A DNA stretch of 64,000 nucleotides from Reyranella sp. CPCC 100927 (GTDB lineage: Bacteria; Pseudomonadota; Alphaproteobacteria; Reyranellales; Reyranellaceae). Shown in pieces: positions 6,305-21,900 of the stretch (positions are counted from its first letter, which is position 1; each line of letters begins with the position of its first letter). A model generated the notes under the pieces. The model saw nothing but the letters and a program-made list of their open reading frames with translations, was not told the origin of the DNA and did no database searches. The position numbers and the translations under genes are program-made. The stretch covers positions 62,001 to 126,000 of the forward strand of contig NZ_VOHA01000005.1 of the NCBI RefSeq assembly GCF_007859315.1, given 5' to 3'.

Positions 6305-7120
6305 ATGAAACTGACAGAGCAGCAAATCGCCGACTATGACCGTGACGGCTACCTGATCCTGAAGGGCCTGATCAGCCCCGAGGAGGTCGCGCTCCTGCAG
6401 CGTGATGCCGAGATGCTGCGCACGCCGCGCCGCGGTCATCCCGACGCCAACGTCATCGAAAAGGACGGCACCAGCATCCGCGCTGCCTGGGCGATCGAGA
6501 TCGACTCGGCGGCCTGCGCCGCGGCCTACCGCATCCCGCGCGTGCTCGAACCGGTGAAGCAGCTCCTGGGAGAGGGTGTCTATCTCTACCAGTCGCGCCT
6601 CAACTACAAGGTCGCAGGCAAGGGCGACGTCTTCCAATGGCACCAGGACTATACGAGCTGGCACATGGACGGCATGCCGCACGGCGGGCACCGCGACATG
6701 CTGACGGTGTTGGTCATGCTCGACGACACCAAGACCGAGAACGGTCCGCTGCGCTTCCTGCCGGGTTCGCATCATGAGGGGATGATCGACCCGGTCTACG
6801 ACACCTGGACCACCAGCTATCCGCTGCACATCGTGCCGGATCCCAGGGTCGAGAGCCTTGTCGCGCGCCGCGGCATCGTCGAATGCACCGGGCCGGCCGG
6901 CACGGTGGTGATCTTCTGCGGCAATCTCGTGCACGGCTCGACCGAGAACCGGTCCGACCGCGACCGGCGCAACCTCTACTTCGCCTACAGCCGCGGCGAC
7001 AACCGGCCGGTACCCGGCGGACCGCGGCGCAAGCATTCCAACAACTACATCATGAATCCCCATCCCCATGCCCTGGAGGTGGTGGACGACCGGGCATTGC
7101 TGGCGGCCGCAACCGCCTGA
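6305..7120 (+). CDS. Phytanoyl-CoA dioxygenase (PhyH) family Fe(II)/2-oxoglutarate hydroxylase
   Basis: 271 residues. Fe(II) ligands are visible as His113-x-Asp115 in QWHQDYTSWH and distal His210 in NLVHGS, followed by an RRNLYFAYS segment that should hold the 2-oxoglutarate-binding arginine. The start at 6305 is chosen because GGAGGAAGG lies just upstream; an earlier ATG at 6254 lacks support. The overall pattern recalls ectoine hydroxylase (EctD) and PhyH-type proline hydroxylases. Position after putA-proC makes a proline-related amino or imino acid a plausible substrate, but no residue seen here proves it. The MFS carrier 47 bp downstream may import the substrate. Confidence 0.8.
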   Translation: MKLTEQQIADYDRDGYLILKGLISPEEVALLQRDAEMLRTPRRGHPDANVIEKDGTSIRAAWAIEIDSAACAAAYRIPRVLEPVKQLLGEGVYLYQSRLNYKVAGKGDVFQWHQDYTSWHMDGMPHGGHRDMLTVLVMLDDTKTENGPLRFLPGSHHEGMIDPVYDTWTTSYPLHIVPDPRVESLVARRGIVECTGPAGTVVIFCGNLVHGSTENRSDRDRRNLYFAYSRGDNRPVPGGPRRKHSNNYIMNPHPHALEVVDDRALLAAATA

Positions 7121-7167
7121 CCGGAGCACGGGGTCTGTCGGGGCAACGAGAAGGGGAGGAAGACATC

Positions 7168-8424
7168 ATGGATCGCAAGACGAGAGCGGCTTTCATCAGC
7201 GCCTACCTGGGCTGGGTCTTCGACTACTACGAGGTCTTCCTTCTCACCTTCCTGGTGCTGCCGATCCGCGCCGAGTTCGGCCTGAGCGTCGTGCAGGCCG
7301 GCTGGCTCTTCTCCTCGCAGCTGCTGTCGCTGGCGGTGGGCGGCATCATCTTCGGCTGGATCGCCGATCGCTGGGGTCGCAAGCCGACGCTGGTGCTGAC
7401 GATCGTGATCTACGCGCTCGCGACCTTCGCCCGCGCCTTCGCGCCCAACTACGAGACGATGCTGCTCCTCACCATCATCGGCGGCCTGGGGATCGGCGGC
7501 GAGTATGGCGTCGGGCAGTCATTGGTCTCGGAGTTGGTGCCGACGCGCCGGCGCGGCTTCTGGAGCGGCTTGCTCTATGGCGGCTGCTTTGTCGGCATCA
7601 TGCTGGCGGCCCTGGTGGGCGGTTACGTGGCGCCCGAGATCGGTTGGCGCTGGACCTTCGCTATCTCCGGTCTGCCCGTGCTCTTCGCCCTCTACGTCCG
7701 CGCCATGAGCCCGGAGAGCGAGGTGTGGGAACGCCAGGCACGCCACGCCGAGTCGGCGCGCCGGGCCTGGGAGACGATCTGGTCGGCCGCCTTCATGGTG
7801 CCCTTCGCCAAGTGCCTGGTGCTGGCGACCGTCTACTTCTTCGCCTACTACGGGATCGCGACATTCCTGCCGTCCTATCTGGTTTCGCAAGGACTCACCG
7901 TCACCAAGGCGTCGTGGTGGCTGTTCTTCTCGGGTGTCGCGGGCCTTGTCGGCAACGCCCTGGGATCCTGGCTGCTGGACCGCGTCGGACGGCGCTGGAC
8001 GCTCTCCATCCTCATGGTGACGGCGACCGTGGCCGCGGTGGTGCTGGCCACGACGTGGAGCACGCTCCTGCATTCCTGGCTGATCCTTGTGCCGTTCTTC
8101 GTGCTCTTCGTGGGGGCGAACGGCGCCACCGTGTTCGGTGCGTTGTTCAGCGAGGCGTTCCCGACCTCGGTGCGCACGACGGGGATGTCGGGCGCCCTGC
8201 AGGTCGCGCGCGGCCTGGCCTTCCTGCCGCCGCTGGTCGTGCCGATGGTGCTGCCGCTCTACGGCTACGCGCCCATCGTGGTGGTGAGCGCCGCGGAGTT
8301 CCTGTTCGTCGGCCTCTGGGTGTGGACGTTCCGCGAGACGCGCAATGTCGACATCACCGAGATCGACGAGATCGCCAGCCAACCGGCGCCGCAGACCGGC
8401 GGCCTGAAGCGCGCCATCGGCTAG
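7168..8424 (+). CDS. MFS transporter, metabolite:H+ symporter type
   Basis: 418 residues with about twelve hydrophobic segments. The family loop motif appears after helix 2 as GWIADRWGRKP, and the second half repeats the pattern as SWLLDRVGRR. Inner-membrane proton-coupled uptake is expected. The sequence resembles the aromatic-acid/ShiA/NanT group of metabolite:H+ symporters. The start ATG is preceded by AAGGGGAGG with good spacing. It probably forms one transcription unit with the PhyH gene and the OsmC gene downstream. The substrate is unknown; a proline-like or betaine-like compound is inferred only from neighbours. Confidence 0.85.
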   Translation: MDRKTRAAFISAYLGWVFDYYEVFLLTFLVLPIRAEFGLSVVQAGWLFSSQLLSLAVGGIIFGWIADRWGRKPTLVLTIVIYALATFARAFAPNYETMLLLTIIGGLGIGGEYGVGQSLVSELVPTRRRGFWSGLLYGGCFVGIMLAALVGGYVAPEIGWRWTFAISGLPVLFALYVRAMSPESEVWERQARHAESARRAWETIWSAAFMVPFAKCLVLATVYFFAYYGIATFLPSYLVSQGLTVTKASWWLFFSGVAGLVGNALGSWLLDRVGRRWTLSILMVTATVAAVVLATTWSTLLHSWLILVPFFVLFVGANGATVFGALFSEAFPTSVRTTGMSGALQVARGLAFLPPLVVPMVLPLYGYAPIVVVSAAEFLFVGLWVWTFRETRNVDITEIDEIASQPAPQTGGLKRAIG

Positions 8425-8457
8425 GTCCGCCGGCCACCCCCAACGAAGGAGATTCCC

Positions 8458-8931
8458 GTGACTGAGCGTGTGCATACCTACCGCTTGGGCCTCCAGTGGA
8501 CCGGTCGTGACGACTCTCCTTCGTTTCGCAACCATGTCCGCGCCTATGCGCTGACGATGCCCGGAAAGCCGCCGATCGCCGGGTCGTCGGATCCGGTGTT
8601 CCGCGGCGATGCGGCACGCTGGACGCCGGAAGACCTGCTGGTGGCGTCGCTCTGCGCTTGCCATCACCTGTGGTACATGGGGCTGTGCGCCGCGGCCGGC
8701 ATCGCCGTTCTCGCCTACGAGGACGCGGCCGAGGGCGTCATGGTGGAAGAGACGGCCGGTGGTGCCGGGCAATTCGAAAAAGTGGTGTTGCGTCCGCGCG
8801 TGGTGCTGGCGCCGGGGACCGATCTACAGAAGGCGCGCGACCTTCACGAGGTGGCGCACGCCAGGTGTTTCATCGCGCGGTCGGTGAACTTCCCCGTGAC
8901 CCACGATGCGGACGTGACGGTGGGCTCGTAA
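8458..8931 (+). CDS. OsmC family protein (peroxiredoxin-like)
   Basis: 157 residues starting with GTG behind AAGGAG. The OsmC/Ohr fold is indicated by a first cysteine motif, SLCACHHLWYMGL (Cys68 aligns with the peroxidatic position; Cys66 is an extra), and a second conserved cysteine, Cys137 in HARCFIARSVNFPV. Members reduce organic hydroperoxides or alkylating compounds in the cytoplasm using a dithiol partner. The gene follows the MFS gene by 33 bp, so co-transcription is likely. The family is clear; the precise substrate is not. Confidence 0.88.
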   Translation: MTERVHTYRLGLQWTGRDDSPSFRNHVRAYALTMPGKPPIAGSSDPVFRGDAARWTPEDLLVASLCACHHLWYMGLCAAAGIAVLAYEDAAEGVMVEETAGGAGQFEKVVLRPRVVLAPGTDLQKARDLHEVAHARCFIARSVNFPVTHDADVTVGS

Positions 8932-9000
8932 TATCCAAGGCAGCGTGGCGTTAGCCACGATTGTCGTCAGTGTCCGAGCCTGCCAAAATTCGGCACTGTC

Positions 9001-10389
9001 ATGAAACGGTTGCTCTCGATCGCCTTGATCGCTGCTCTGGCGAGCGCCATGCCGGCCGTGGCGCAGGATACCCAGGGGCGTCCGGCCGTCATCGCGAAGC
9101 CGGTCATCCTCGGCGAGAGCCACTACGAGGGCGAGTGGGGCCCCAAGCCGTACGACTTCATCACGCGCAAGCAGGCATACTGGACGATCCTGTCGGGCGG
9201 TGCCGGTCATGCCTACGGCGCCAAGGGGATATGGCGGTGGGGCGACCTGCGATGGGATCAGGACTTCCCCGCCGCGCTCAATGCCGCCAGCGCCGCGCAG
9301 ATGAAGCACACCAGCGACCTTTTCACCACGCGCGCCTGGCACAAGCTGGTGCCTGATCTCGACGGCACGGTCATGACGGCCGGCGCCGGCGAGGGGGTCG
9401 ACTATGCGACGACGGCGCGCGCCAGCGACGGCAGCCTGGTGATCGCCTACATCCCGACCCCGCGCACCGTGAGCATCGATATGGGCCGGCTCGCTGGCCC
9501 GGTGATGGCGCGCTGGTTCGATCCCACGAACGGCAAATACAGAGCCATCGCCGGATCAGCGCTGGCCAACAGCGGCCGCCGCGATTTCGCGACGCCGGGC
9601 AACAATGCGATCGGTCATGGCGACTGGGTGTTGGTGCTCGAGACAGGCCGGCCGCGCGCAGCGGCGCCAGCGCCGGCCTTTCCATTGAAAGTCAGCCGCA
9701 CTGGTCGCCATCTTGTGGACCGTCATGGCCGGCCGTTCTTCTATCAGGCCGATACGCCGTGGTGGATGATCTGGAAGGGGAAACCCGCCGACATTCACGC
9801 CTACCTCGTCAACCGCAAGGCACGCGGGTTCAACACGCTGCAGATCATGGTGTTGCCGGCCGGCGCGGCGCCGGAGGCGCATCTGGTCAACGAGCCCGAC
9901 GTCAACGGCAACCGGCCGTTCCCCAATGGCAGGATCCTCGATGTCGCCTCGGTGAGCGAGGCTTATATGCGGCACGCCGACGAGGTGATCCGGCAGGCCA
10001 GCGCGGCGGGCTTCTATCTCGTGCTCGCACCGGCCTGGTTCGGCGCCAAGGGCGGCGATTTCGAGGTGTACATCAATGATCACAACGCGACGGCGTGGGG
10101 CCGGTATCTCGCGAACCGCTATCGAGCGTACCAGAATATCGCCTGGATCGTGGCCGGCGACAGCAACGCCGAGGGCAAGGCTAGCGCCGTGCACGCTATG
10201 GCCCGGGCGTTCAAGGCGATCGCCCCGCACCAGCTCGTGACCGCACACGCCGGCGTGCAGTCGAGCTTCACGCAGTACCACAGCGAAAGCTGGCTCGATT
10301 TCAATATGGCCTACGACTACACCTGGGGCGGCGCCTGGGTCTACCCGCAGGTGCGGCGCGACTATCAGGGCGGGGTGGGCAGCCGATAG
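9001..10389 (+). CDS. Secreted apiosidase-like (DUF4038/GH140-like) protein with circularly permuted halves
   Basis: 462 residues. Residues 1-22 are a signal peptide ending AVA|Q. Residues 28-215 match what is normally the C-terminal half of DUF4038 proteins: the KPVILGESHYEG segment with candidate catalytic Glu39, RKQAYWTILSGGAGHAYG, then the beta domain ending ARWFDPTNGKY and GDWVLVLE. A Pro/Ala linker (about 216-226) leads to residues 227-462, which match the normal N-terminal half: PLKVSRTGRHLVDRHGRPFF, RGFNTLQ and WIVAGDSN with candidate catalytic Asp387. The protein ends just before the Glu segment would normally follow. Order is therefore swapped while all parts are present. It could act on apiose-type or other plant glycans in the periplasm or outside. 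Confidence 0.8.
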   Translation: MKRLLSIALIAALASAMPAVAQDTQGRPAVIAKPVILGESHYEGEWGPKPYDFITRKQAYWTILSGGAGHAYGAKGIWRWGDLRWDQDFPAALNAASAAQMKHTSDLFTTRAWHKLVPDLDGTVMTAGAGEGVDYATTARASDGSLVIAYIPTPRTVSIDMGRLAGPVMARWFDPTNGKYRAIAGSALANSGRRDFATPGNNAIGHGDWVLVLETGRPRAAAPAPAFPLKVSRTGRHLVDRHGRPFFYQADTPWWMIWKGKPADIHAYLVNRKARGFNTLQIMVLPAGAAPEAHLVNEPDVNGNRPFPNGRILDVASVSEAYMRHADEVIRQASAAGFYLVLAPAWFGAKGGDFEVYINDHNATAWGRYLANRYRAYQNIAWIVAGDSNAEGKASAVHAMARAFKAIAPHQLVTAHAGVQSSFTQYHSESWLDFNMAYDYTWGGAWVYPQVRRDYQGGVGSR

Positions 10390-10440
10390 CGCGCCAGCGA
10401 TAACCCCGGTTTATCCCGGCACGCGTCGCCATCGTGCAAC

Positions 10441-10459
10441 AATGATGTAAAGGATCATT
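10441..10459. promoter_or_regulatory. Inverted repeat upstream of the STN-sigma-fecR genes
   Basis: AATGAT and ATCATT flank 7 bp inside a locally AT-rich patch 46 bp before the first gene of the signalling locus. The half-sites recall Fur-type sequences but the spacing is too wide for a classical Fur box. It is a candidate operator or promoter element for the locus. Confidence 0.3.
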
Positions 10460-10504
10460 CTTAGCGTAGCCCGCCGATGCGAGCAGCCTGCGGGTCGATA
10501 ACGT

Positions 10505-11272
10505 TTGCCTGGTTCCAGCCTCCGTGCGCGACGGTCTTGTTGGGGGATTGCCCGGCGCTGCCGGGCAGTTTGTCTCGCGCTCGCCTTGATTCCAGGCGCA
10601 GGGGCCGCCCTCGCGGCGCCTGATGAAGCGATCGCTGCGACGTCCGGCAGCGACAGGAGCCCACGAAACCGGCTGGTCGCTTTCGACATTCCGGCTCAGC
10701 CGCTGGCGTCGGCGCTCGACCGCTACGGCGATGCCACGGGGCGCGAGGTTCTTTACAGCACCGGCATGGTCGTTAGCCGACGCTCGATGGCCGTGCGCGG
10801 CCTGCTGACGCCGGAAGCCGCGCTGCTGAAGTTGCTCGAGGGGACCGGGCTTTCGCCCCGGTTCATGGCGGATCAGTCCTTCGTCCTGGTGTCGACGCCA
10901 GACCACCGCCAGACAAGGGGCGCCGCCGCGGCACCAGCCCTCCAGCAATGGTACTACGCCCGCATTCAGGCCAGCCTGAGACAGGCATTCTGCTGGAACA
11001 GCACGGCGCTGCCGGGCAGCTATCGCGTTGCGGTGGTGTTCTGGCTCGGCCCCTCGGGCGACGTCCAGAGGCACGAACGGCTGAGTTCGACCGGCGCCGC
11101 CGATCTCGACGCCCGGATTGACGCAACCCTGCAGCGCCTGACCATCGGCGCGCCGCCGCCACCGGGTTTCGTTCAGCCCGTCCTCATCCTGATCGTGCCG
11201 CAGGCACCCGACGTGACTATGGGCTGCGGGACCGATGGTGCGGGTCACGGTCCGGCGAGATCCCGGCGATGA
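10505..11272 (+). CDS. STN-domain periplasmic protein with TonB-like C-terminus
   Basis: 255 residues. The start is a TTG two codons after an in-frame stop; no ATG or GTG lies before the signal peptide (hydrophobic to about residue 38, ALA|AP), so TTG is the only reasonable choice. Residues about 57-128 form a secretin/TonB short N-terminal (STN) domain, VAFDIPAQPLASALDRYG to FVLV, the module FecA-type receptors use to contact FecR. Residues about 145-240 resemble the TonB C-terminal domain (LSSTGAADLDARID, then IGAPPPPGF). Here the signalling domain is free-standing instead of attached to a TonB-dependent receptor. It overlaps the sigma gene by 4 bp, so the two are translationally coupled. 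Confidence 0.8.
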   Translation: MPGSSLRARRSCWGIARRCRAVCLALALIPGAGAALAAPDEAIAATSGSDRSPRNRLVAFDIPAQPLASALDRYGDATGREVLYSTGMVVSRRSMAVRGLLTPEAALLKLLEGTGLSPRFMADQSFVLVSTPDHRQTRGAAAAPALQQWYYARIQASLRQAFCWNSTALPGSYRVAVVFWLGPSGDVQRHERLSSTGAADLDARIDATLQRLTIGAPPPPGFVQPVLILIVPQAPDVTMGCGTDGAGHGPARSRR

Positions 11273-11781
11273 CGGAAACACCGCTGGCTACGCTTCGCCG
11301 GCTTTTTCTCGACTGCTACGACGAGCTCAAGACGCGTCTTGCGCGGCGCCTGGGTTCAACCGATGTGGCCGCCGACGTGATGCAGGACACATGGCTGCGA
11401 TTGGCGCGGGCGGACGCCATCGGTACGGTTCGCAATCCCGGCAACTACCTTCTGCGTGTCGTTCTCAATGTGGCGCAGGATCGCCGGCGCGCCGAGAAGC
11501 GGCATCTGTCGACGGCTGAGATCGACAGCCTGCTTCATCTCGCCGATGCGGCACCGGGTCCGGCGCAGGTTGCCGAAGCGCGATCCGAACATCAGGTACT
11601 GGCCGCCGTCCTGGCCGAACTGCCGCCACGCCGGCGGGCGATCCTGCTGGCGGCACGGCTCGACAACCTGCCGCGCCAGGAGATCGCCGATCGTCTGGGT
11701 ATTTCGCTGCGCCTGGTGTCGAAAGAGCTGCGCCTGGCTCACGAGCACTGCGTTGCCCGGTGCGGCGAGACGAAGGGCTGA
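11269..11781 (+). CDS. ECF sigma factor, FecI-like
   Basis: 170 residues. Sigma region 2 occupies about 5-80 (LARRLGSTDVAADVMQDTWLRL, which contains the core-binding and -10-recognition helices) and region 4 about 115-165 (LAELPPRRRAILLAARL, then an HTH around DRLGISLRLVSKEL). The protein would direct RNA polymerase to promoters controlled by envelope signalling. Its start overlaps the STN gene stop, and fecR follows after a 100-bp gap that contains a candidate promoter. Target genes are inferred to include fecR and the downstream exoprotein gene, because the same two-part motif precedes both. Confidence 0.92.
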   Translation: MTETPLATLRRLFLDCYDELKTRLARRLGSTDVAADVMQDTWLRLARADAIGTVRNPGNYLLRVVLNVAQDRRRAEKRHLSTAEIDSLLHLADAAPGPAQVAEARSEHQVLAAVLAELPPRRRAILLAARLDNLPRQEIADRLGISLRLVSKELRLAHEHCVARCGETKG

Positions 11782-11782
11782 T

Positions 11783-11817
11783 CGTGCGCGTTACGCCCGC
11801 AAGACTCGTCTTGGTGG
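11783..11817 (+). promoter_or_regulatory. Candidate ECF-sigma promoter upstream of fecR
   Basis: CGTGCGCGTT, 14 bp, then CGTCTTGGTGG, immediately after the sigma-gene stop. The same two blocks with the same 24-bp start-to-start distance recur at 12939-12973. The second block resembles the CGTC-type -10 element of FecI-group sigma factors. It explains the otherwise unusual gap between sigma and fecR. Confidence 0.6.
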
Positions 11818-11881
11818 CAGGGGCCGGCCTGGCCCGACGTCGCTTGATCGTGGGGAGGACGCTGCAAGGCGCCACACAGGC

Positions 11882-12880
11882 ATGAGCGAGGCCAGAAGCA
11901 AAACGACCACCCTCGATCCGCTGCAGCGCGAGGCTGTCGCCTGGGTTCAGCGGCTGGTGTCCGGCCGCGCCACGACCGAGGATTCGGCAGCGCTGCAGCG
12001 CTGGTGCGCGCGAAGCGCGGCGCACAGGGCCGCATTTACCGAAGCGAGCCGGGTGTGGGGGGAGATCGCATCGGCGGCGCGTAGCGTGCAGGCCGACCGT
12101 GGCGCATTGGCCCTGAACGCAGCGTATCCGCGCCGGACCGCGTCTCGCCGGGTGTTGCTGGGCGGCGGACTTGCGACGGCGGCGGCTGCCGCCTACGCCG
12201 TTGTCGATCCGCCGTTTCGACTCTGGCCGTCGCTATCCGAGCTCAATGCCGACTACCGGACCGCCACCGGCGAGCAGCGGCAGATCACGCTGGCCCATCG
12301 TCTGGCCGTGCGCATGAACACGCAGACCAGTCTCGTCGTGCGGCCTGCCGAAGGACTTGCCGATCGCGTCGAACTGATCGCCGGCGAAGCGTCCTTTGTG
12401 ATGGAGCCGCAGGCGCGGCGGTCGCTGATCGTGCTGGCCGCCGCTGGCAGCACCATCGGCACGGATGCCCGCTTCGATGTGCGCCACCTGCAGGGTGATG
12501 CCGGGGCGTCGGTGTGCGTGACATGCTTCGACGGCGATGTTCGGATCGAGCGGGGCACGGACAGGATGGTGCTCGGCCCCGGGCAGCAGGTGCGCTATGG
12601 CGCTGCAGGTCTGGGGCGGGTGGCTACGGTCGATGCCGAGGCCGCCTCGGCCTGGCAACGCGGAATCGTGGTTTTCCGTGCCACGCCGCTGGCTGAAGTG
12701 GTGGACGAGATCAACCGCTACCGGCCGGGCCGGATCATTCTGGTCAACGCCGAACTGGGCCGCAAGCCGGTCAGCGGCCGTTTCCGGGCCGATCGCATGA
12801 ACGAGATCCTGAGCCGATTGGAGCAGGCCTTTGCGGTGCGCGTGCGAATGTTGCCCGGTGGCATCGTGCTGTTGGGTTGA
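11882..12880 (+). CDS. FecR-family anti-sigma / signal transducer
   Basis: 332 residues. The N-terminal cytoplasmic part (about 10-80) is the DUF4880-type sigma-binding region, with AVAWVQRLVSGRATTEDSAA and WCARSAAHRAAF. One transmembrane segment follows an RRTASRR stop-transfer at about 82-107. The periplasmic FecR domain (about 120-240) contains TGEQRQITLAHRLAVRMNTQ, ELIAGEASF and GPGQQVRY. The C-terminus ends in a DUF4974/STN-like region with VDEINRYRP and FRADRMNEIL. ATG 11882 is chosen because the frame open upstream of it does not read like protein. It should hold the ECF sigma factor until signalled through the STN protein. Confidence 0.9.
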   Translation: MSEARSKTTTLDPLQREAVAWVQRLVSGRATTEDSAALQRWCARSAAHRAAFTEASRVWGEIASAARSVQADRGALALNAAYPRRTASRRVLLGGGLATAAAAAYAVVDPPFRLWPSLSELNADYRTATGEQRQITLAHRLAVRMNTQTSLVVRPAEGLADRVELIAGEASFVMEPQARRSLIVLAAAGSTIGTDARFDVRHLQGDAGASVCVTCFDGDVRIERGTDRMVLGPGQQVRYGAAGLGRVATVDAEAASAWQRGIVVFRATPLAEVVDEINRYRPGRIILVNAELGRKPVSGRFRADRMNEILSRLEQAFAVRVRMLPGGIVLLG

Positions 12881-12938
12881 CGCCGCTGATGACGACCGGG
12901 ACCCGCCGCTTCGGCGGAATCAGTCTTGTGTCGATACC

Positions 12939-12973
12939 CGTGCGCGTTTGGCGGGGATGGTCCGTCTTGGTGG
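12939..12973 (+). promoter_or_regulatory. Candidate ECF-sigma promoter upstream of the exoprotein gene
   Basis: CGTGCGCGTT, 14 bp, CGTCTTGGTGG, the same blocks and spacing as at 11783-11817. It lies 26 bp before the start codon of the giant exoprotein, which has AGGAG at 12988-12992 as ribosome-binding site. The conservation of both blocks and spacing in otherwise unrelated intergenic DNA argues for a shared sigma factor. Confidence 0.65.
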
Positions 12974-12998
12974 TAGAGGCCCCTGCCAGGAGTTGTCG

Positions 12999-15900
12999 AT
13001 GTCCGTTCCCGCCGCCGCTGATCGCGCTGTTGTTCTGAACCGGCGGCCTCGGCGCGCGTCGCTGCTGGCGAGCGTGAGCGTTGCCGCGCTGGTGACGGCA
13101 AGCGTGCCGGCCCAGGCGCGCGACATCCTGCGCGGCAACCGGACGGCGGCGCCGGTGGCGGCTGTTACGGCGCAGCAGGCGGCGGCGATGCAGCAGGCGC
13201 GACAGGCAAGCAATGCGCTGCAGCGCACGACGCAGGCTGTCCAGGCGATGCGCGCGGCGCAGAATGCGGCCCGCAATCTTGCGCTGCGGACGCCAGCGGC
13301 GGTTCCCAATGGCCTGACACCGGATGGCCTCGTGGTGGCGCTGGGGGCGGGCGCGGTACCTGGCGTCTGGACCGGTGCCCGGCTGCCGACGCAGACGCAG
13401 GTCGATGGTCGCACCCAGGTCGACATCAAGCAAACGGAAGCGAAGGCGATCCTGAACTGGACGACATTCAATGTCGGCAGGGAGACCACGGTCCGGTTCG
13501 ATCAGCAGGGCAATAGCACATGGGTGGCCCTGAATCGGGTAAGCGATCCGGCGGCACGCCCCTCGCGGATCGCTGGTCAGATCAAAGCCGACGGACACGT
13601 CTATATCATCAACCGCAACGGGGTGATCTTCACCGGCTCGGCGCAGGTCAACACGCATGCGCTGATCGCCTCCAGTGCCGGCATCACCGACGAGCAGTTC
13701 CGCACCGCCGGCATCTACAGCGCGCAGGCGGCAGGCGCCTACGTGCCGAGCTTCCGTGGAGCCGCGGGCCTGGTGCGGGTCGAGGCAGGTGCCGAGATCA
13801 CGACCCACACACCGACATCGGTGACGAGCGGCGGCGGTTTCGTTGCCCTGCTGGGCATTGGCGTGGAGAACGCCGGCACGATCGCCACACCGAAGGGGCA
13901 GGCGCTGCTGGCGGCCGGCGACGACTTCATCCTGCGCCGCGGTTACGGCACGGACGCCAATCAGAGTTCGACCACGCGCGGCAGCGAGGTCGCACCCATC
14001 ATCGGCGCCGGCAGCACCAGTGGCACGGTTGTCAACGCCGGCCTGATCTTCAGCCAGCAGGGCGACATCACGCTGGTCGGGCGGTCGGTGACCCAGGCTG
14101 GGGTGGCGCTGGCCACGACCTCGGTCAACACCCGCGGCACGATCCATCTGCTCAACGCGGCGTCCGATACGCAGGGCAGCGTGGTCCTGGCGACCGGCAG
14201 CCTGAGTGCCATCCTGCCCGAACTCGACAGCGTGGAGACGGCGCTCGACAGCCAGCGCTCGGCGCTCATCACCGCGTCGAGCGCGTCTGCGCACCAGCCG
14301 GTCGCGCATGCGCAGTTCACCAATCTCAGCCTGCTGCCCGACCGGCTCGACCAGTCGCGCGTCGAGATCGTGAGCGGCGGCGACGTGGTCTTCCAGCGCG
14401 GCTCGATCACCCAGGCCCAGGGCGGGCAGGTGGCGGTGAGCGCCGCCCGGCGCGTGCTGGCCGTTGACGGCGCCCTGATCGACGTTTCGGGCACGCGCGA
14501 CGTGCTGCTGCCCATGTCGAGCAACAATCTCAAGGTCAGCATCCAGGGCAACGAACTGCGGGATGCGCCGATCAACCGCGACAGCGGTCATCTCAAGAGC
14601 AGCGACGTCTGGATTGACACGCGTGACCTGGTCCTGGTGCCAGCCGGTACCGGTGGCTATGCCAGCGAGCGCTACTACACGAGGGGCGGGCTTCTCGAGG
14701 TCCGGGGCTACCTCAACAACAGCGGCCATCGGATCGGTGAGTGGGCAGCGCTGGGCGGCACGATCGCGTTGTCTGCGCGCGAGGTCGTAGCGCAGCAGGG
14801 CGCAATCTTTGACGTCTCGGGCGGTGCGGTCTCCTACGACGGCGGCTACATCCGCACCACCAACCTGCTGGGCAGCGACGGCCGGGTCTACAGCGTCAAT
14901 GGCGCCCCCGCCGACCAGTTGTTCTATGGCCTGGGGCAGGGCTTCGTGCGCAAGCATGCCCGCTGGGGTGTCACCGAGATCTGGATGAACCCGCTCGGCA
15001 AGGGCCGGGAAAGCTTGCGCTGGGAGGCCGGCTATACCATCGGCCGCGACGCTGGCGGACTCATCCTGTCGGCACCGACGACGATCTTCGACGGCACGAT
15101 CGTGGCCGGTGTCGTGGCGGGGCAGCGCCAGGCCACAGCCCGACCCGGCGGTGTCACCGACGGCTACGCGTTGCCGCAAAACACCGCGCCACGCGCCGGG
15201 TCGCTGACGGTGGGACGTTACGGCACCCTGGGCGTTGAGGGCGGGCATGACAGCAAGATCGTCGTCGGTGCCGTTGCACCGCTCGTATCCGCCATCGGTG
15301 CGGCAACACCGCTGCCGTCGGCGCGGACCAACACCGTTCTCCTCGATGCCCGGCGGCTCAACGACTCGGCGCTGGGCGGGCTCCATCTCACCACGACGCA
15401 GACGGTCGCCATCGATGCGCCGCTGACGCTGGCCGACGGCGGATCGCTGTCGATCACCGCGCCCGTGACCACGATCGGCGCGGACATCACGGCGCACAGC
15501 GGCCGGGTGAGCATCACCAACATCCTGAAGGTGCCGGGCCGCAATCCCGGCGAGTTTACGCCGCAGGCGCTGACGCTCGATGGCGCGGCCGGCGTGACAT
15601 TGAAGGCGGGTACAGCCATCGACGTACGCGGCGTGTGGACCAACGCCGTGCTGGATCCTACCCGTCGCATCGGCCTGGCCTACGTCGACGGCGGCACCGT
15701 CAGCGTCGCGACCACGGGCAGCGTGACGATCGAGCGGGGCAGCCTGATCGACGTGTCGTCGGGTGCCGCCTGGCTCGAAATCGGCAAACTGCTCGGTGGC
15801 CGTGGTGGCGACGTCACCTTGCAGGTCGGCGTGCCGGCGCACGACGTCATCACTGGTGCGACCCTGACGCTGGATGGCACGTTGCGCGCCGCCGGTGTCG

Positions 15901-18900
15901 CCGGCGGCGGTACGCTGAGCTTGCAATCGCCGGTGACGGTTCTGATCGGCAAGGACGCGGTCCTGGCCGGCGGCGTGCTGCGCGCCAACGAACGGGCACC
16001 CACGGGTGTCGTCCTGGCGCAGGACCTTGCGATTCTGCCCGGCGGCATCATCCCGGTCACCGTGACGGAGATGCGCTCGACAACGCCACTGGAAACCCCG
16101 CTGCCGGCCACCACCACACCGACCAATCAAGAAGTGATCGTCACCGCGTCGACATGGACGCTGCCGCCAGGCGTGATGCTGGCCACCAGCGACGGTCGGT
16201 ATTATGGCGCCGGCGCGGTCCTGCCGGCCGGCACGCGGATTGCCGCGTTCATGGGTGGCCTGCCGTTCGGCATGGTTGTCCCGGCCGCCGTGTTTCCGCG
16301 CGGTATTCCTGTCCGGCCGTTCCAGTTCACGCTGGTGGCCGGCTCCCGGACCTACGAGGGCTACACGTACCGGCCCGGGCAGAAGGTGCCCCAGGGCACG
16401 GCGTTCACCGAGGCCGTCCGCTTTGCGCCGCCTTTCGCCGTCGACCCCGGTCTCTTCCAGACCGGCTTCTCCACTTACAGCCTCACCAGCCTCACCGGCC
16501 TTGTCATCGGTGACGGGGCGCGCATCGACGTTGCCATGCCGGTGCTGCGGGCCACCGATACCGCTTTCGCCGCGCCGACGGGCAGCACGCCCGCACAGGT
16601 GCTGGCGCAATGGCTGCCGCCGGTCTATCGCGACGATCCTGTCACGGGGCGCCTGACGCAGCGCGCCGGCGCGAACCTCATCCTCGCGGGCATGGACCTG
16701 CGGGTGGACCGAGGCGCGGCCGTGACGGTCGATCCCGGCCGGTCGGTCCGGCTGGCCACCATCAGGCAGATCACTGTCGACGGCGCGATCGTGGCTCCCG
16801 GCGGCAGCGTCACGATCGTGAACGACAAGGTGTTCAACCGCGAGCCAGGCATGAATGCGCCGGGCCAGTCGATCTGGATCGGCGCGACGGCGGTGCTCGA
16901 CGTATCGGCGCAGGCCGTGACCGCCCGGGATGCCAACGGCCGACGCTACGGCATCGTCACCGAGGGTGGCGCCATCCGCATCGGCATCGACAGCGGCCAG
17001 AGGCCGACCGGCGCGCTGGTGATCATCCGCGACGGCGCGCGGCTGGACGCATCGGGCACGGCGGTCGACCTCGATCTGCCCGCGGGCCGCATGGATGCAG
17101 GCGCGTCCGTCACGCGCGCCAGCGCCGGCGGCACGATCGCGATCGGCTCGAGCGCCGGGCTGCTGCTGGACGGCGATATGCGCGCAGCCGCCGGCGGGCA
17201 GGGGGCAGCCGGCGGCAGGCTCGAGCTCACGTTGGAGACGACCTATGTCTCCAACACGTTCCTGGGCGCGGCGCGCGGGCCGCATGTCTTCACGATCACC
17301 CAGGAGCGCATCGGCCGCACACAGCCGGACGGCCTCGTGGCGGGAGTTCACGATCCGGCCTTGCCCTATGGACAGGCGCGGCTCAGCGTCGAGCAGGTCA
17401 GGGCCGGCGGCTTCGATACCCTGTCATTGTGGAGCCGCGACATCTTCCGCTTCGACGGTGATGTCGATCTGGCCATGGGAAGAAGCCTGATCCTCCAACG
17501 CGGTATCCTGTCGGTGGCACCCACGACGCCGGCCGCGCGTGTCTCGCTGGCTGCCCCGCACGTGGTGCTGGCAGGCCAGGGGAACATCGAGCTTCCCGAC
17601 GATCCCACGCTCTACTACGCGGGCATCACCTACACGGGCTACGGCTGGCTGATGCCGACCGTCAACGCGGGGCATCTGACGGTCACGGCCGACCTGATCG
17701 ACCTGCGCGACGCGGTCCACTTCGGTGCGCTGGCCCAGCACGGTATCGCACCGGTCCACAATCGGCCGATCGATCTGCCAGGCTTCGCCGACGTCGCCTT
17801 GATCAGCCGCGGCGACGTGCGGATCGGCAACGGCTCAGTGGATGCCGGCCGCCGGCTCACGATCACGGCCGCTCAGCTCTATCCGACAACCGGCGCCAAG
17901 GCGACGATCCGGGCGGGCGTCTACAAGCCTGATGCGGTTTACGATATTGCATTCGACCCCAACGCCGTCATCGCCATCCGCGGCCTGGGCGATGCGCCGC
18001 CGCCGCTCCCCGCGTCCGTCTTTGGCTCGTTGCAGCTGATGGCCGCCACGATGGAGCAGGGCGGTATCGTTCGGGCGCCGCTCGGCACCATCGTGCTCGG
18101 CGAGGGCGTGTCGAAGGCCGATCCGCGCTACGCCCAGCAGATGGCGGCGACCCTGCTGCCCGGCAGCGTCACATCGGTCAGCGCCGCCGGATTGATCGTG
18201 CCTTACGGCGGAACGGTCGATGGGCTGAGCTATACCTACAATGGCGAGAAGGTCGCCTTCTCCGACCTCGCCGCGCTGGTCGGCGACAACGGCGTCAACC
18301 AGGGTATTACACTCGGTGTCGGCCGCATCGACATTGACCGCGGCGCGCTGCTTGACCTGTCGGGCGGTGGCGAGCTCAGCGGCGCGGCGTTCTTCACCGG
18401 CCGCGGCGGCTCGGTCGATGTCCTGAGGACAGCGCTTGCCAATGCCAATCCTGCAGCGAACCGGGGCAGCACGCCGGGCGCTCGGGTCTACGCCATCGTT
18501 CCCGGCTATGCGTCGGCCTACGCGCCGCTGGCACCGGAGACCGGCGCCGGCGACCCGGTCGTGGGCCAACAGGTCACGCTGTCGCGGGCTGTCGGCGGCT
18601 TGCCGGCAGGCACTTACACGCTGCTGCCGTCGACATACGCGCTGTTGCCGGGCGCCTGGCGGGTCGAGATCGGCGGCGCCGCGCCGGTCGATGCGACGGC
18701 GCGGCTGGCGGACGGCTCGCACGTTGCTGCTGGTGTGTTGAGTGTCGCCAACACGGCCATCCGTGACGTGCTGCCCACGCTGCTGACGCTGACGCCGGCG
18801 TCTATCGTGCGCACCCATTCGCAATACAACGAGACCAGCTACAGCGCCTTTGCGCTCGCCAACGCGGCGACCTTCAACGCGGTGCGCCCGCGCCTGCCGG

Positions 18901-21900
18901 TGGACGGCAAGACGCTGGTATTGAGCTTCGGCGCGGCCAAGGGCGAGACGCTGCGCTTCGACGGCCAGGCGCTGTTCGCGCCGGCCCGGGGCGGCTATGG
19001 CGGAACGCTGGCCGTCATCGCGAACACCGGCATCGAGGTCAAGGCCGCGGGTGCACCGGCAACGCCGGGGCTGGTGTCGCTCAACGCACAGGATCTGTCC
19101 GCCTTCAACGCCAGTGCGCTGTTGATCGGCGGTGTCTATCGCTACGAGCTGGCCTTCGACTGGAGCACCTCCACGGCCCTGGGGCCGCGTGTGATCTTCA
19201 ACGGCAACGACGCCGGCGTCGCCGTGCGCCAGGGTGCCACGTTGCGTGGCGGGCAGATCTTCGTGGTCGGCCGCGACATCGTGATCGAGCGCGGCGCCAC
19301 GCTCGACACCTCGGCCGGTAGCTCGAACGGCATCGATTCCAGCCTGGGTTATGTGTTCTCCGACTCGTTGGACGATCGTAACTCGCAGGCCGGCGCCATC
19401 CTCACGGTCGCCAACGGCTACTTCCATTTCCTGCCGCCCATCCTTGATGCGCGGCCCAGCACGATCAAAGTGCAGGACGGTGCGATCCTGCGCACGCAGG
19501 GAACGATCGCGTTCTCCGCCGCCGGCGCCGTGGATCCCGGGCAGGCGGCGCTCAATGCACGCTTCCTGACCTTGAGCCTGCCCGAGCTGAACATCGGCGA
19601 TGCGGCCTCGTTCGCCGCGGCGGAGGCGGCGGGCGCGATCGGTTCGGGCTGGCGGTTGACCCAGTCGATGATCGCGCGGCTGCTGCATCCGACCGCATCC
19701 GGCATGACCCCGGTCGAGCGGCTGACGTTCACGGTCGGCGGTTCGATCAACATCTTCGGCGGCGTGACCATCGACATGCGCAGCACGGGCGCCACACGCA
19801 CGGCACTCATCCTGAATACGCCGGCCCTGTACGGCTGGGGCCGGCCGGGCGAGGTCGCGACGATCGCGACCGACACGCTGATCTGGAGCGGCCTCGTCCA
19901 GGGCATGGGCACGGTCGACAAGCCCTATGTCAGTGTCGGCCCGGGTGCCGTGAGGCCCGGCGGGGCCGGAACGGGCAGCGGCGCGTTGGTCGTTGACGCC
20001 CGCCAGATCGTCTTCGGTTACGATCCGTCGGCGCGACCGCAGACTCAGGCGACGCTTGATCGCCTGATGCTGGGGTTCTCGGCCGTGAGCCTGCAGGCCA
20101 GCGAGCGGATCAGCGCCAATAACCGCAGCAGCCTTGCCGTCTATCACACCGGCGCCAGCGCCAGCACCTATGGCGGCGGCAGCCTCGCTCTGCGTACCCC
20201 GCTGCTGACGGGCGAGGCCGGCTCCTTCATGACCTATCGATCGGGCGGTGCCGTCACGGTGAGCGCGCCGGCCGGCGCAGCGTCGGTCGACACCGCGACG
20301 ATCACGGCGCTGGGCGGCGAAGTGCGGCTGGCCGGCACGCGCGTGACACTGGACACGGCAGTGGCGCTGCCCAGCGGCCGTCTGATGCTGGAAGCAGCGA
20401 GCGACATCGCGCTGCACGATCGTGCTGTCATCGACCTGTCGGGACGGGGCGTGCGGTTCTTCGACGTCACCCGGTACAGCTGGGGCGGCGAGTTGGTGAT
20501 GGAGAGCACCGACGGCGCCATCCGCCAGGCCGCCGGATCGACGATCGACGTCTCGGCGCGCAACAACGACGCCGGCAGGATCAAGGTGACGGCCACAGGG
20601 GCTGATGGCAGCGTTGCTCTGGCCGGACGCCTGCGCGGCGCCGCCGACACCGGTTTCGAGGCCGGCGTCGTCGATATCCGGGCCCGGGTGCTGGACGATT
20701 TCGCGGGACTGAACGGTCGCCTCAACCAGGGTGAGGTGTTCGGCGCCCGCAGCTTCGTGATCAAGACCGGTGATCTGGTGGTCGGTGACGACGTTAGGGC
20801 ACGTCGGGTCACCATTGCCGTCGATGGCGGCAGCCTGACCATCAACGGCCGGATCGACGCCAGCGGGCGCGGGGCGGGTATCATCCGGCTTGCCGCCCGC
20901 GACAACCTGGTGCTCGGTACGGGCGGCATGCTCGATGCGCACGGCACGGTGTTGCGGGTCGACAGCCGCGGCGCGCCGATCGATGCGGCGAACACGGCGC
21001 AGATCGAGCTGACAACGACGCACGGCACGCTGACGCTGGCCCGCGGCGCGGTCATCGACCTGCGTGCTGCCGACGGCGTGGCCCGCGGCCGGCTCGAGCT
21101 CAACGCGCCGCGCACCGTCGCCGCCGGTATCGACAGCGACATTGCGATCAGTGCCGCCGGGCCGCTCGACATCAGCGGCGCCGCGAGCATCGCGATCAAC
21201 GGCTGGCGCCGCTATGCCGCGGACGGGGGACTCGTCGATCAGGTGCTGCTCGATCGCATCCATGGCGACAGCACCACCTTCATCGACGCCGCGCGCGGCA
21301 ACGATGCCTTGCGCGCACGCCTGGCGGGGCTCGACGCCCATGGTCTCCATCTGCGTCCGGGCGTCGAGATCCTCAGTGCCTCAGCCGGCGGCGATCTCAC
21401 CATCGCGGGTGACCTCGACTTCTCCGGCTACCGGTATGGACCGGACGCCGATCCGGCACGTCGTGGGTCGGGCGAACCCGGCGTCGTGGTGATCCGCGCC
21501 GGCGGCCGGCTGCTGGTCAACGGCAGCATCAACGACGGCTTCGCGCCGCCGCCGGCGACGCCGGACGACCATGGCTGGGCCGATGGCCGCGCGGGTCGGA
21601 TCTGGGCCATCGCGCCGATGCTGGCACCGGGATCGCTGTCGTGGTCGATGCGGCTGGTCGCCGGCGCCGACACCGCGTCGGCCGATACGCGCACGCTGCG
21701 GCCGCGCTCGAGTCTCGCCGGCGGCGGCGATCTGGTTCTGTCGGACGAGCATTTCTCGGGTTATTTCCCCGATCGCCGGGTCTTCAGCGTGATCCGCACC
21801 GGAACCGGCACGCTGGACCTGCTGGCCGGCGGCGACTACCGGCAGGACTCGCTGTTCGGTGTCTACACGGCGGGAACCGCCATCGCGGTGGGGCCTGAGC

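Follow-up and report, generated by a model that had tools for sequence, protein, structure and literature searches.

The window analyzed here is a 64,000-nucleotide stretch of contig NZ_VOHA01000005.1 from Reyranella sp. CPCC 100927, the draft assembly of which amounts to 9.08 Mb in 81 contigs. An intact open reading frame on the forward strand (positions 9001–10389) encodes 462 amino acids followed by a stop codon, and its parts, numbered by their positions in the window, are as follows.

9001..10389, plus strand: permuted apiosidase-like gene, defined by the open reading frame, Pfam matches, and a custom profile
9001..9066, plus strand: signal-peptide-like N-terminus at the new N-terminal end, residues 1–22, recognized by eye
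9094..9339, plus strand: C-terminal part of the PF13204 barrel (profile positions 229–318), inferred β7 to α8, with Glu39 (codon 9115–9117) and Tyr42
9367..9642, plus strand: PF12904 β-sandwich domain (Collagen_bind_2), residues 123–214, profile positions 5–92
9646..9681, plus strand: Pro/Ala-rich linker running from GDWVLVLE (old C-terminus) to AFPLKVS (old mature N-terminus)
9697..10368, plus strand: N-terminal part of the PF13204 barrel (profile positions 2–225), inferred β1 to α6, with Asp387 (codon 10159–10161), Trp254, and Trp346
10369..10389, plus strand: new C-terminal tail GGVGSR and stop, within the canonical α6–β7 loop

Upstream of the frame, genes on the same strand encode a pyrroline-5-carboxylate reductase, a PhyH-type dioxygenase, a major facilitator transporter, and an OsmC-like protein, and downstream (10505–24833) follow a TonB/STN protein, a sigma-70-type factor, a FecR-type protein, and then an open reading frame of 4000 residues. 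The last of these resembles a filamentous haemagglutinin by eye, and the stretch from the TonB/STN gene to the FecR-type gene has a second copy at G000:C23:22189-23993 with 64–68% DNA identity. No functional link between the genes flanking positions 9001–10389 and the permuted enzyme is evident in the window, and three other genomes of the genus (5.0 to 8.8 Mb in size) showed no stretch syntenic with positions 7000–12880.

The initial annotation had proposed that this gene is a natural circular permutation of an apiosidase-like (DUF4038) enzyme in which the order of the family landmarks is reversed, and had suggested aligning the two segments separately and swapping them in silico. The protein was split at residue 216 and each part was matched separately to Pfam. 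Residues 28–215 alone matched PF13204 at positions 229–318 and then PF12904 at positions 4–92, and residues 216–462 alone matched PF13204 at positions 2–225 (model length 320). Both families are matched far above their gathering scores (216.1 bits against 26.5 for PF13204 and 49.1 bits against 22 for PF12904). The PF13204 domain is thus whole but lies in two pieces, 2–225 and 229–318 of 320, with the later piece preceding the earlier one, so that the colinear order, which is usual for PF13204 though not demanded by the Pfam score cut-off, is absent. Likewise, PF12904 stands at residues 123–214, ahead of most of PF13204, and not at its usual C-terminal location. The window protein is accordingly a permuted relative of PF13204 and not a standard member. 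Permutations of this kind can be hidden by routine annotation, since the Pfam best-hit table of the protein resembles that of an ordinary two-domain protein.

The same reversal was found with a custom profile built from 38 relatives, all of canonical order, against which residues 31–216 of the native protein correspond to model positions 243–436 and residues 221–456 to model positions 5–240. Swapping the halves in silico gave a single match over model positions 10–435 with 343.7 bits, and a chance match is excluded, since 200 shuffled versions of the window protein scored at most 4.9 bits against this profile. Only model positions 241–242 of the 38-relative profile are missing from the window protein, which bears out the earlier view that all parts are complete. 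In sequence comparison with the PDB, 3kzs, 8t9w, and 4qfu each give two aligned segments whose order is reversed, so that Pfam, the 38-relative profile, and the PDB alignments agree on the reversal, and neither profile search gives hits in the normal order, the outcome that the initial annotation had named as contradicting it. The cut falls in the loop between inferred helix 6 (AWVYPQVRRDYQ) and strand 7 (KPVILGE), the secondary structure of the window protein being assigned by inference from the family, and the length of this α6–β7 loop varies among relatives. A canonical DUF4038 gene in another genome (L052, ~2190–2290, G1177:C70) switches reading frame in the same loop, a shift that could reflect faulty assembly of that draft genome.

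The order was sought in ~1,970 genomes covering the genus, family, and order of the host and samples of its class, of its phylum, and of the orders or phyla surrounding the relatives, and the search also took in plasmids, phages, and one contig scan. Relatives were drawn from Verrucomicrobiota, Bacteroidota, an Acidobacteriota plasmid, alphaproteobacterial plasmids, genomes of the host's class, and Monoglobus bins; nothing from viral contigs could be used to deepen the alignment. Among the fetched loci, 76 open reading frames had profile matches and 71 spanned more than 300 model positions (duplicate loci counted); the reversed order occurs in the window gene alone, the other 70 near-full-length frames being canonical. 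No other permuted member of the apiosidase-like family was found among the relatives from this search whose order was determined. The host genome holds no second copy, no homologue was found in its order (0 of 75 other genomes searched), and the genomes searched yielded no intermediate stage, either duplicated or partly truncated. A match in genome G824 (query 156–443, with an internal stop) was considered as a pair of tandem genes and rejected, the linker having merely been aligned into the N-terminal region of L035. Genome G837 also gave a tandem-gene-like match over query 156–443 with an internal stop. The initial annotation had held that absence of the order from related genomes, together with missing core strands, would speak against a permutation; the order occurs in no related genome searched, whereas no core segment is missing.

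A singleton in an 81-contig draft raises the question of an assembly artefact, in which a canonical gene or a tandem pair was joined chimerically. This explanation is very improbable in our judgement, because the gene lies on an uninterrupted contig, the assembly contains elsewhere neither another copy nor the missing outer halves, and the 5 kb flanks contain no outer halves either. A collapsed tandem repeat would retain the outer halves and not drop them, and the joins are in frame with the signal-peptide-like start in place.

Whether the two halves stem from one gene or from two was addressed through their relationships. Raw identities hint at a chimera of distant paralogues, since the identities of the two halves to relatives are uncorrelated in the window protein (Spearman 0.05, against 0.5–0.9 for most relatives) and its closest relatives differ between halves. 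However, trees built separately from the halves do not support such a chimera. In 48-row half-trees, the window protein is sister to the same 11 rows in both, and in 55-row half-trees the same split of 14 versus 41 rows is recovered in both, with support of 100/98 in each. The 14-row subfamily consists of the window protein, L064, L003, six sequences of the L014/L060 type, and five of the L006/L018 type. One clade in the 55-row set has a very long A-half branch (1.82), which explains its low identity to everything, and the low half-to-half correlation is largely due to this fast-evolving A half. The end branch of the window protein in the A-half tree (1.49) is also among the longest (median 0.36), which is compatible with relaxed constraint. 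Within the 14-row subfamily, the two half-trees place L064 differently with respect to the window protein, and the B-half arrangement is not rejected by the A half (p-AU 0.095). Judged by these sequences, both halves are from one subfamily, and resolution ends at that level.

The shared subfamily argues for one permuted gene over a fusion of two distant paralogues. In the fusion scenario, two formerly adjacent DUF4038 paralogues were joined so that gene 1 contributes its second half and gene 2, following it, its first half, and the outer halves were deleted; the uncorrelated identities and half-specific best matches, as well as the presence of several DUF4038 genes in some genomes, can be cited in its favor. 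Placement of both halves in the same 14 rows, the origin of the low correlation mostly in one clade's fast A half, and the similar GC3 of the two halves (0.87 and 0.85) nevertheless make it unlikely. A fusion of two close paralogues within the subfamily would look the same as a duplicated gene.

The junction itself bears on the route by which the order arose. Canonical relatives stop one to a few residues past GDWVLVLE or its equivalent, and their mature chains start with sequences such as LAAAPVFPLK (L050), AVAAPAFPLK (L006), and RPAAAFPLKV (L060), while the window protein reads GDWVLVLETGRPRAAAPAPAFPLKVS at its junction. The Pro/Ala linker thus looks like an old C-terminus fused to an old mature N-terminus, as the initial annotation had said, and this likeness fits the prediction of end-to-end fusion of two copies, that is, of permutation by duplication. 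No remnants of the lost halves were found within 5 kb of the gene on either side, and the two new ends share no sequence of at least 8 bases.

Reversed yet complete coverage, the common subfamily, the likeness of the linker to the old ends, the retained conserved columns described below, the intact reading frame, and the position of the cut in a variable loop together make a natural circular permutation the best reading of the gene, and one that we consider likely. By the route we infer, an ancestral gene would have been duplicated in tandem and its copies fused end to end, so that the C-terminus of copy 1 was joined to the start of the mature chain of copy 2. Copy 1 would then have lost its first half, between the signal peptide and β7, and copy 2 its last part, after α6, and the resulting chain would consist of the signal peptide, β7 to α8 with Glu39, the β-sandwich, the Pro/Ala linker, and β1 to α6 with Asp387. 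Tandem duplication with loss of the outer halves had been proposed in the initial annotation; the linker is as that proposal predicts, though no intermediate was found, and the route, like folding, activity, and substrate, is presented here as presumptive. If the permutation reading is true, the old termini still recognizable in the linker make the route testable step by step.

The proposed catalytic pair, Glu39 and Asp387, which the initial annotation had numbered correctly, is kept, as are 31 of the 36 columns that are at least 90% conserved among relatives, a proportion within the range of ordinary relatives. Asp387, Trp254, and Trp346 are the counterparts of BT_1012 Asp187, Trp63, and Trp149 in the phmmer alignment, with BT_1012 numbering taken as chain numbering plus 20 by inference. 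Glu39 and Tyr42 correspond to BT_1012 Glu284 and Tyr287 in the profile alignment, just outside the printed phmmer alignment, and the Glu39 position is conserved in 98% of relatives. The roles of these residues in the BT_1012 active site have been described (PMC4032388).

Structure prediction had been suggested as a check on barrel closure. AlphaFold was run twice on alignments of nine rows, in which each half of a relative was entered as a row of its own, and with these shallow alignments the models reached mean pLDDT values of 58.5 and 64.4 and did not build the strands at either new terminus. Only the second part of the model fits 4qfu, 5msy, and 3kzs, with Z ~19 over 181–188 residues (VIA-align), and the top Foldseek match of the model is 8t9w. 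The unbuilt strands, together with the long branch of a singleton, could be taken to mean that a recent rearrangement left a dead gene whose chain neither folds nor works. We regard this as improbable, given the intact 462-codon frame, the precise cut in a variable loop, the signal-peptide-like start, the absence of any missing strand, and the conserved active-site residues, though this conservation may predate the rearrangement.

On balance, we favor the view that the circularly permuted gene, cut inside the TIM barrel at the α6–β7 loop, encodes a functional glycoside hydrolase. The permuted chain would be expected to fold into the barrel of its relatives, with Glu39 and Asp387 meeting in a single active site. 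The protein is a predicted secreted sugar-cutting enzyme, the N-terminal stretch, MKRLLSIALIAALASAMPAVA, resembling by eye the signal peptide that had been claimed for it, and it would cut a glycosidic bond of a glycan located in the periplasm or outside the cell. The description of the protein as apiosidase-like stands as far as membership of the PF13204/PF12904 family is concerned, but the two GH140-annotated relatives (L016 and L059) fall among the 41 rows in both half-trees, apart from the window protein. Because of this separation, "apiosidase" is to be taken here as no more than the name of the family. On alphaproteobacterial plasmids, three other members of the 14-row subfamily (L017, L057, and L058) adjoin glycosyltransferase or polysaccharide pyruvyl transferase genes, and these gene neighbors make a bacterial exopolysaccharide a candidate substrate.

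The best sequence and fold matches of the window protein are the GH140 enzyme BT_1012 (3KZS, 5MSY) and a mangrove GH140 apiosidase (8T9W), with which it shares the same two full-length domains and the same conserved active-site residues. It differs from both in its reversed order, with termini in the α6–β7 loop, and in the β-sandwich domain, which is internal in the window protein and C-terminal in BT_1012 and 8T9W. A paper that names DUF4038 describes the canonical order alone (PMC4032388). Because the case is a single gene with a junction still like the old termini, and because canonical structures have been solved, the effect of permutation by duplication on folding and activity is directly testable.

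Circular permutations are generally modeled as arising by duplication or by fission and fusion (PMC3320104). A search of the open-access literature for natural circular permutation together with the TIM barrel found no paper, and known examples of such permutation within TIM-barrel glycoside hydrolases seem scarce, GH70 being the well-studied one that this analysis came upon. The GH13 subfamily 19 amylase MalS is a barrel glycoside hydrolase with a permuted domain order (PMC10223318); in MalS, the C domain is split between both chain ends, whereas in the window protein the cut lies inside the barrel itself. The phenomenon is already known from GH70 compared with GH13, where the natural permutation of a (β/α)8 glycoside hydrolase has been explained by duplication, fusion, and partial truncation (PMC4919382), a precedent for the route proposed above, and what would be new here is a gene of the apiosidase-like family. 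The GH70 glucansucrases and the window protein are both permuted (β/α)8 glycoside hydrolases of different families, with the cut before α3 in GH70 and between α6 and β7 in the window protein, and GH70 is a whole established family, whereas the window case is one gene.
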